This document shows, piece by piece, positions 21,271 through 23,301 of a stretch of 43,795 nt of DNA. This DNA comes from Patescibacteria group bacterium. Its GTDB lineage: Bacteria > Patescibacteriota > Minisyncoccia > Minisyncoccales > JAHCRE01. The notes below the pieces were generated by a model. The model made no database searches. It was not told the origin of the DNA and was given only the letters and a program-made list of their open reading frames with translations. Location of the stretch: positions 1 through 43,795 of the forward strand of contig JAHCRH010000005.1 of the NCBI GenBank assembly GCA_020148025.1. Direction: 5' to 3'. The position numbers were made by a program, and so were the translations under genes. Positions within the stretch are counted from its first letter, which is position 1. The number at the start of each line of letters is the position of its first letter.

Positions 21271-21321
21271 ATTTTTGACGGTTGCCCCGCACCAGAAACT
21301 TTGTTTCGGTACGGGACTAGT

Positions 21322-21349
21322 CCAGCACCGAGTTTTGCTCTGGTGCTGG
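21322..21349. repeat. Palindromic repeat family P2, copy 1
   Basis: ccagcacc-gagttttgctct-ggtgctgg. Confidence 0.6.
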
Positions 21350-21381
21350 GGATACCTTTTATAAAGGAGTCCAAGAAAAAT

Positions 21382-22593
21382 ATGAGATTTAATTATCAGG
21401 CCAGAACTAAAACTGGTTCACCTCAGGCCGGAACAGTTGAGGCTTCTTCCAGAGAGGCAGCTGTAGCTCTTTTGGAAAAATATGGGCTTTATGTCACTTC
21501 TTTAGAAAGAACAACAGCAGTACCAGTTTTTTTTAGAAAAATAAAGCTTTTCCAGAGAATTTCCTCAGGCGAGATAGTCGGTTTTTCTAGACAACTAGCC
21601 ATTATGTTTAGATCGAGAATTCCAATCGTAGAGATTTTTTATACCCTGGCTAAACAGACCAAAAATCCACTTTTTAAAGAAAAAATTGTTCAAATTGCTG
21701 AAGATGTAGAGGGAGGAGTTTCTCTTTCTTCCACCTTGACTAAGCATCCCAAAATTTTTAGTCAATTTTACGTCAGTATGGTTAAATCTGGCGAGGTTTC
21801 TGGAGAACTTGCAGAAGTTTTAGATTATTTAGCTGACCATTTGGAAAGAGAAAAAGATTTCCATTCAAAAATGACTGGAGCAATGATTTATCCTGCCATG
21901 GTTTTAATAGTTGTCTTAGTCGTGATTTTAGCCATGACTCTTTTCGTTATTCCCCAATTAGGAGAAATGATAAGGGAAATGGAAATGGAAATTCCTCTTA
22001 TGACTGAACTTGTTTTGGGTTTTTCTGATCTTTTGAAAAAATGGGGAATATTTTTTCTTATCGGTGTTGTTATTTTGATATTTCCCTTTTTCCGATTTTT
22101 AAAAACTAAAGAGGGAAAGAAAGCTTTTGCTAAGTTTTCCTTGAAAATTCCTATACTGGGTGGCTTTTTGAAAAAAGTTTACCTTACTCGTTTTGCTGAG
22201 AATTTATCAACCTTAATTTCCGGAGGCTTGCCAATTGCCCGGGCTTTAGAAATCACCGCTGATATAGTTGGAAATGATGTTTACAGAACCATCATTTTGA
22301 GAACTCGAGATGGAGTAAGAAGAGGAGAGACGATATCTTCTATTTTAGAGGGGTATCCTGAAGTTATCCCTCCTTTGTTTACCCAAATGACCTTAGTTGG
22401 AGAAAAGGCTGGTCGAGTAAGTCCGGCCCTAATGAGTATTGTTGGTTTTTACAAAAAAGATGTTGACCGAACTCTTGATAATTTCGTCAGTTTTCTTGAA
22501 CCCCTTTTAATTATTTTCTTGGGAGTAGTAGTTGCCGGATTAATGATTAGTGTTTTAATGCCGATCTATCAAGTTGCTTTGGGGGGATTCTGA
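21382..22593 (+). CDS. pilC: Type IV pilus inner membrane platform protein PilC/GspF
   Basis: FNYQARTKTGSPQAGTVEA, FSRQLAIMFRSRIPIVEIF, GVRRGETISSIL...LPIYQVALGGF; aaggag 12-13 nt before ATG 21382. Confidence 0.9.
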   Translation: MRFNYQARTKTGSPQAGTVEASSREAAVALLEKYGLYVTSLERTTAVPVFFRKIKLFQRISSGEIVGFSRQLAIMFRSRIPIVEIFYTLAKQTKNPLFKEKIVQIAEDVEGGVSLSSTLTKHPKIFSQFYVSMVKSGEVSGELAEVLDYLADHLEREKDFHSKMTGAMIYPAMVLIVVLVVILAMTLFVIPQLGEMIREMEMEIPLMTELVLGFSDLLKKWGIFFLIGVVILIFPFFRFLKTKEGKKAFAKFSLKIPILGGFLKKVYLTRFAENLSTLISGGLPIARALEITADIVGNDVYRTIILRTRDGVRRGETISSILEGYPEVIPPLFTQMTLVGEKAGRVSPALMSIVGFYKKDVDRTLDNFVSFLEPLLIIFLGVVVAGLMISVLMPIYQVALGGF

Positions 22594-22675: not shown

Positions 22676-22763
22676 TCCGCTCAATTTATCCACACCTTGA
22701 CTTGATAAAAATTTGCTATAATAAAAAATAACCCACTTAAAGGGTTAAGATAAAAAATTAAAA

Positions 22764-22845
22764 GGTCGAATCCCCCACTAACTTTGTCCTTTTAAAGAAA
22801 GAATAAAAAATAGTCTTCTCTTGGGACAAAGTTAGTGGGGGAGAA
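22764..22845 (+). promoter_or_regulatory. Inverted-repeat leader element, copy B (18-bp perfect arms 22772-22789 / 22824-22841)
   Basis: ggtcgaatCCCCCACTAACTTTGTCC ... GGACAAAGTTAGTGGGGGagaat; 37 nt before ATG at 22879. Confidence 0.75.
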
Positions 22846-22878
22846 TGATAATTTAATAATACATAATTAAGAACTAAA

Positions 22879-23301
22879 ATGAATAAAAAAGGTTTTACCT
22901 TAATCGAGCTTCTGGTGGTTATTGCCATCATTGGAATTTTAGCTTCTATTGTTTTGGTTAGTTTGGGTGGTGCAAGAGACAGAGCCAAAGATGCCAGGAT
23001 AACAGCTGCTTTGGGACAACTACGAAGCGTAGGTGAGATTTTCTACAACGATAACAATACTTATACCGGTTTAGATGCAGATTCTGATGAAGACACACTC
23101 GCAGCCGATATTGCCGGTCAGGGAGGGACATATACCATCCTAATAGATGCTGATGGGGGTGGTTTTTGTGCTGCCTCTTCGTTGAATACGGGCGGTTATT
23201 GGTGTGTTGATAGTGGATTAAAGTCTGCAAAAGATGCTGATGGAACGCTTACTAACTGTGTTGCTGCTTGTAGTGTAGCCAATACCTGTGCCTGTGACTA
23301 G
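22879..23301 (+). CDS. Type IV pilin (prepilin)
   Basis: MNKKGFTLIELLVVIAIIGILASIVLVSLGGARDRAKD class III leader. Confidence 0.9.
   Translation: MNKKGFTLIELLVVIAIIGILASIVLVSLGGARDRAKDARITAALGQLRSVGEIFYNDNNTYTGLDADSDEDTLAADIAGQGGTYTILIDADGGGFCAASSLNTGGYWCVDSGLKSAKDADGTLTNCVAACSVANTCACD

Follow-up and report, generated by a model that had tools for sequence, protein, structure and literature searches.

So far, protein-coding palindromic elements have been regarded as peculiar to Rickettsia and Wolbachia. In these bacteria, short palindromic repeats occur outside genes, but many lie in frame in unrelated housekeeping genes, where they form extra peptide segments (PMC10969869, PMC3767692). In the Candidate Phyla Radiation (CPR), extra segments are known from rRNA genes, and insertions of more than 10 bp were reported for 31% of one 16S gene set (PMC9698310). 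Our literature search found no paper that joins the CPR with miniature inverted-repeat elements. To our knowledge, almost no gene regulation has been described in CPR bacteria. Pilins form surface structures thought to be important for CPR episymbionts in reaching their hosts.

Here we analyze two copies of a hairpin, A and B, that precede pilin-type genes in one CPR genome. The window is the whole analyzed stretch of DNA, 43,795 nucleotides of a Patescibacteria group bacterium. In all likelihood, both copies represent a non-autonomous palindromic mobile element of the ultra-small Parcubacteria, inserted in a pilin 5' leader that was already there, immediately after the motif AAAGGTCGA. The interpretation as such an element is based on its patchy spread, insertions in RNA genes and in frame in protein genes, empty sites in sister species, and 4-bp direct repeats.

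Two hairpin copies in pilin-type leaders

The features of the two loci are as follows.

532-540, plus strand: leader motif AAAGGTCGA of the A locus, from a motif search of the own genome
542-560, plus strand: left arm of copy A, from arm pairing
561-654, plus strand: interior of copy A, with a GGAGCC-GAA-GGCTCC mini-hairpin adjoining the right arm
655-673, plus strand: right arm of copy A, from arm pairing
674-677, plus strand: right direct repeat GAAT of copy A (the left one is at 539-542)
710-1093, plus strand: T4SS_pilin gene (PF18895, domain match) behind copy A
21301-22593, plus strand: pilC-like gene (T2SSF, PF00482), the anchor for finding orthologous leaders
22714-22722, plus strand: extended -10 TGCTATAAT of the pilin gene
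22761-22769, plus strand: conserved 5'-leader motif AAAGGTCGA of the B locus, older than the hairpin
22768-22771, plus strand: left direct repeat GAAT of copy B, a probable target duplication whose T overlaps the first arm base
22771-22789, plus strand: left arm of copy B, TCCCCCACTAACTTTGTCC, from arm pairing and the window arm search
22790-22823, plus strand: variable interior of copy B, from sequence and arm pairing
22824-22842, plus strand: right arm of copy B, GGACAAAGTTAGTGGGGGA, from arm pairing and the window arm search
22843-22846, plus strand: right direct repeat GAAT of copy B, from sequence
22879-23301, plus strand: type IV pilin gene (N_methyl, PF07963, domain match) behind copy B

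In each copy the arms are complementary at 19 of 19 positions, with 34 nt between them in B and 94 nt in A. These perfect 19-bp arms confirm the description of B in an earlier note on this DNA as a hairpin of the same family as A with a 34-nt interior. The aaagaaagaat core, which that note considered to be shared, is indeed common to both interiors, and copy B looks like a copy A shortened by an internal deletion. The left flank AAAGGTCGAA, not mentioned in the note, is also identical in both copies. The distance from the right arm to the ATG is 36 nt in each (673 to 710 for A, 22842 to 22879 for B). The window contains four arm matches with at most three mismatches, where 0.13 would be expected (0 of 100 shuffles), and the whole genome (614,750 bases, 25 contigs) contains no arm pairs other than copies A and B. 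The predicted folding energy is -39 kcal/mol for the B element alone and -55 kcal/mol for A; thermodynamically, copy B would fold into a very stable hairpin. An Rfam search of the window at the gathering score yielded only tRNAs and no RNA family at the element. A mini-hairpin beside the arm (GGAGCC..GGCTCC or similar) is real in copy A and in the copies L018 and L080; as a defining part of the element it was dropped, with 7 of 28 long copies having one against 2.3 expected.

The TATAAT noticed earlier at 22717-22722 is present and belongs to an extended -10 of the form TGnTATAAT. Because orthologous leaders in both a congener (G001) and a genome from the same family (G002) retain this upstream sequence, copy B is very probably located in a 5' UTR of about 150 nt, as had been proposed. 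A small AACCC...GGGTT hairpin noted nearby does exist at 22730-22746 but is not kept in the relatives. The pilin context holds for copy B, with its type IV pilin, whereas the gene behind copy A encodes a VirB2/TrbC-like T4SS_pilin, which belongs to another family.

The window also contains a second palindrome family, ACCCCGTTAGAAAA..TTTTCTAACGGGGT, located between genes at 1638-1651/1760-1773. Elsewhere (L005, L139), this family is found next to a copy in G039 and, in G002, upstream of the promoter for the pilin. Another long inverted repeat with a similar start, CCCCCCACCTATTTTGTCG..AATAGGTGGGAGG, is found at 35434-35459/35575-35600.

The leader motif and the empty sites in relatives

The nine nucleotides directly before the element are AAAGGTCGA at both loci. 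In the own genome this motif is present upstream of at least 12 other genes (among them the leaders C2, C3, C9, C10, C14, C15, C17 and C24), mostly 26-49 nt before the ATG, and is 11.5-fold enriched in 80-nt upstream regions. In relatives across the order (L138-L147, L208-L267) it recurs before pilin and other genes, and the distance to the ATG in uninterrupted leaders is 21-49 nt. The motif precedes the pilin gene behind pilC in 9 of the 12 relatives examined. Of 243 genomes from the order, 64 contain the strict pattern AAAGGTCGA-N30..60-GFTLIEL, against none for the reversed-pattern control; in the class sample, about ten genomes outside the order have it too.

Among 69 pilin leaders, TATAAT occurs upstream of the motif in 29 (6.5 expected) and downstream in 5 (10 expected). 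We infer from this enrichment upstream, and not downstream, that AAAGGTCGA is transcribed in most of these leaders; the same distribution led us to reject the motif as a promoter -35. Shine-Dalgarno-like cores after the motif are scarce, being present in 8 of the 69 pilin leaders and in none of 12 own-genome leaders. For a comparison of the motif with the 16S tail, the MAG yielded no 16S 3' end. A literature search on the string returned, among the matches listed, unrelated papers only, and the motif is apparently new to the literature. It provides a concrete, testable leader signal for pilins.

Neither G001 nor G002 has the hairpin in its orthologous leaders, be it at the A or the B site. There, the leaders continue uninterrupted through AAAGGTCGA (GGTCGAA...) into an AT-rich leader. 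In the window, both sites read AAAGGTCGAAT, then the hairpin, then GAAT, that is, an insertion with a repeat of 3-4 nt (GAA/GAAT) rather than a clean 4 nt. In further relatives, no hairpin was found between the motif and the ATG in the motif-bearing pilin leaders downstream of pilC. The earlier note had located the function of the leader in its conserved closing stem and the distance from there to the start codon, and had named a comparison of pilin leaders across related genomes as a check. This comparison leaves the suggestion unsupported. By sequence comparison, the part of the leader really conserved across the group is AAAGGTCGA, not the hairpin. The conserved spacing is the distance from AAAGGTCGA to the ATG and pre-dates the insertion. 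Conservation of the arms, in turn, is explained by the element being a mobile palindrome with copies in protein genes as well as in rRNA and RNase P RNA.

Both own-genome copies occupy the same position of the same 9-nt motif, which is more than random insertion would give. Thus, target choice, copying between the sites or selection has to be added to the explanation: the AAAGGTCGA leader is either a preferred target or a place where hairpins are retained. A broader proposal is that AAAGGUCGA is a new 5'-leader element of mRNAs for pilins and some envelope or secreted proteins throughout the order, which replaces the Shine-Dalgarno sequence 20-50 nt before the AUG, and that it attracts or retains mobile palindromic hairpins because a folded hairpin next to it preserves or tunes the leader. 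We consider this proposal tentative and, as a whole, rather unlikely.

Palindromes of other kinds also adjoin the motif. In two of G214's pilin-type leaders (L030 and L080, minus strand), AAAGGTCGA is directly followed by other hairpins (GACCCCGCATGGGCGGGGTC, GACTCGCATAGGCGAGGTC, GACACTGAGC..GCGAAGTGTC), and in L208, L210, L141 and L245 CCCC-type palindromes (e.g., CCCCGCACCTTTT..AAAAGGTGCGGGG) adjoin it on the 5' side.

Spread of the palindrome family and explanations for the hairpin

A covariance model of the arm pair was run against 247 genomes of the order plus further genomes sampled from the class. Carriers were 16 of the 247 and 16 of the roughly 267 additional class genomes, a few of the weakest matches being doubtful. 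Most carriers have one or two copies. The arm consensus is YCCCCCACTAACTTTG/CAAAGTTAGTGGGGGR, and the element length is mostly 68-170 nt. One genome stands apart: G214 (Staskawiczbacteria, AlinenSediments bin 5022) contains at least 13 copies, with exact arms occurring at least seven times, whereas none were found in 11 other sampled species of its genus. In a collection of 85,488 genomes, exact arm pairs were found in Parcubacteria only. Exact arms without a partner are rare, and in the 247 genomes no unpaired or widely spaced exact arms point to an autonomous partner or a transposase gene with matching ends; an autonomous transposon was sought via exact arms and none was found.

The arms covary. 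In 22 distinct arm pairs, 96% of cells pair, and 9 of 16 pairs changed on both sides. Cells with changes on both sides number 41 against 11 in shuffles (0 of 500), and sliding the partner abolishes the signal. This covariation fits upkeep of the palindrome, which could equally well come from selection on the hairpin or from correction within the palindrome.

Copies are located inside 16S rRNA (L006, L069), 23S rRNA (L047, L050, L052) and a class A RNase P RNA (L011, matched at 86 bits across the insert). In the 16S rRNA of G032 (L006, 1499-1635), two diverged palindromes stand in tandem and are followed by a third of different sequence. Fourteen protein genes carry in-frame copies; all 13 with measured lengths are 2 mod 3, that is, in frame once four extra nucleotides are counted, and contain no stop. 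The hosts were named by inspecting the sequence rather than by a family search. In G214 they include NifS, an MBL-fold protein, MiaA, HtrA, IleRS, MutM, LysRS, SecA, SmpB, the start of a type IV pilin, and others; beyond G214 they are TrmH in G181 and a DinB-like protein in G425. The encoded peptide is [SP]PTNF...KLVG[DG] or a close variant, always in the PTNF/KLVG frame. For six of the G214 genes (HtrA, MBL fold, LysRS, NifS, MiaA, MutM), sister species have empty sites, and the net gain is the element plus 4 nt. The remaining copies are intergenic or in leaders.

Perfect 4-nt direct repeats flank ten copies, all outside G214: TGAA (L063, L068), CAAG (L065), TTTA (L066, L072, L092), TCAA (L015, L071, L088) and TTGA (L086). 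The flanks of in-gene copies in G214 (L019-L034, L079-L085) are different: left flanks fit YTYR and right flanks fit YRAR, the two sides being non-identical, usually with YTCR at one end and YTTR at the other. Simple target duplication would not explain these flanks; they look as if one side had been carried over. The empty sites show insertion; absence from orthologues, patchiness, a burst in a single species, direct repeats, covariation, and hosts among both RNAs and proteins were likewise observed.

These observations bear on other explanations of the hairpin. It could be a functional cis-regulatory leader of pilin mRNAs, acting as a thermosensor or through stability or translation control, and possibly derived from a recruited mobile hairpin. 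Indeed, A and B both precede pilin-type genes with the same 36-nt spacing, one G214 copy is located 36 nt ahead of a T4SS_pilin-like gene and another where a type IV pilin gene starts, and of 69 other pilin leaders, 4 have CCCC-type palindromes immediately upstream of the motif, against 1.2 expected. However, the hairpin is missing from the same leaders of G001 and G002 and from other pilC-linked leaders, most copies are away from pilin genes, and the spacing is accounted for by the older distance from motif to ATG; behind the motif, the 69 leaders are uninformative, as the pattern that selected them excludes hairpins there. We therefore regard a regulatory role as improbable. A role as intrinsic terminator or attenuator in the pilC-pilin interval is hardly credible: the hairpin is stable and does stand between two genes of a pilus operon, but its right arm is followed by GAGAATGATAATTT with no T run, it lies downstream of the pilin's own -10, and related copies are found inside coding genes.

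Copies in 16S and 23S rRNA and in RNase P RNA, with their long perfect stems, could also suggest an RNA-level intervening sequence that is excised from transcripts by an RNase III-like activity, whatever the host. Yet all 13 measured coding copies keep the frame with a 4-nt gain and lack stops, which would be needless if the segment were removed before translation. Because coding copies preserve the reading frame, this explanation was rejected as very unlikely.

Under the mobile-palindrome explanation, an enzyme acting in trans, with staggered cuts of 3-4 nt, may move the element, whose insertions would survive where the hairpin is harmless. In leaders the hairpin would be extruded, and in the folded state AAAGGTCGA would remain some 36 nt away from the ATG, a distance like that in uninterrupted leaders. 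Structured RNAs would tolerate it as an extra helix and protein genes as an in-frame peptide loop, [SP]PTNF...KLVG[DG]. On this reading, the pilin leader probably tolerates the hairpin as a passenger, and its effect on pilin expression, if any, would be secondary.

Comparison with known insertions and palindromic repeats

The element resembles the insertions in CPR 16S and 23S genes as an extra segment in the rRNA of the same bacteria. The insertions discussed in the review of these genes are mainly self-splicing introns and protein-coding insertions (PMC9698310), whereas here a family of hairpins of about 70-150 nt is common to rRNA, protein genes and leaders.

Another comparison is with bacterial MITEs (Correia/NEMIS, ERIC, BOX, RUP and others), which are small, have inverted ends, make short target duplications and occur in several copies per genome. 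Terminal inverted repeats are present here as well. The signs of a target-site duplication are mixed: perfect 4-nt repeats flank ten copies, A and B have GAA/GAAT, and in G214 the YTYR/YRAR flanks are non-identical. Unlike in MITEs, exact arms in the 247 genomes led to no autonomous transposon with matching ends, the arms account for nearly all of the hairpin, and its interior shows hardly any conservation from copy to copy.

By its features, the element appears closest in kind to the Rickettsia palindromic elements (RPEs). Like the RPEs, which are palindromic repeats of about 100-150 bp, it occurs in several copies (here mostly 68-170 nt) and is inserted in frame in unrelated protein genes, 14 in this case, with empty orthologues. 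RPE families belong to Rickettsiales, whereas exact arm pairs of this element were found in Parcubacteria only in the 85,488 genomes; hence, we call it RPE-like and not an RPE. It also differs in being often shorter (about 72 nt), in its almost free interior, in its additional presence in rRNA and RNase P RNA, in the strong covariation of its arms, and in the clear 4-nt direct repeats at some copies. The CPR family thus provides a second, apparently independent case of protein-coding palindromes, in organisms with equally small genomes. It enters rRNA and RNase P RNA and, in one CPR bacterium, about a dozen genes, many of them housekeeping, and its insertions constitute many natural tests of how proteins and RNAs tolerate inserted segments.
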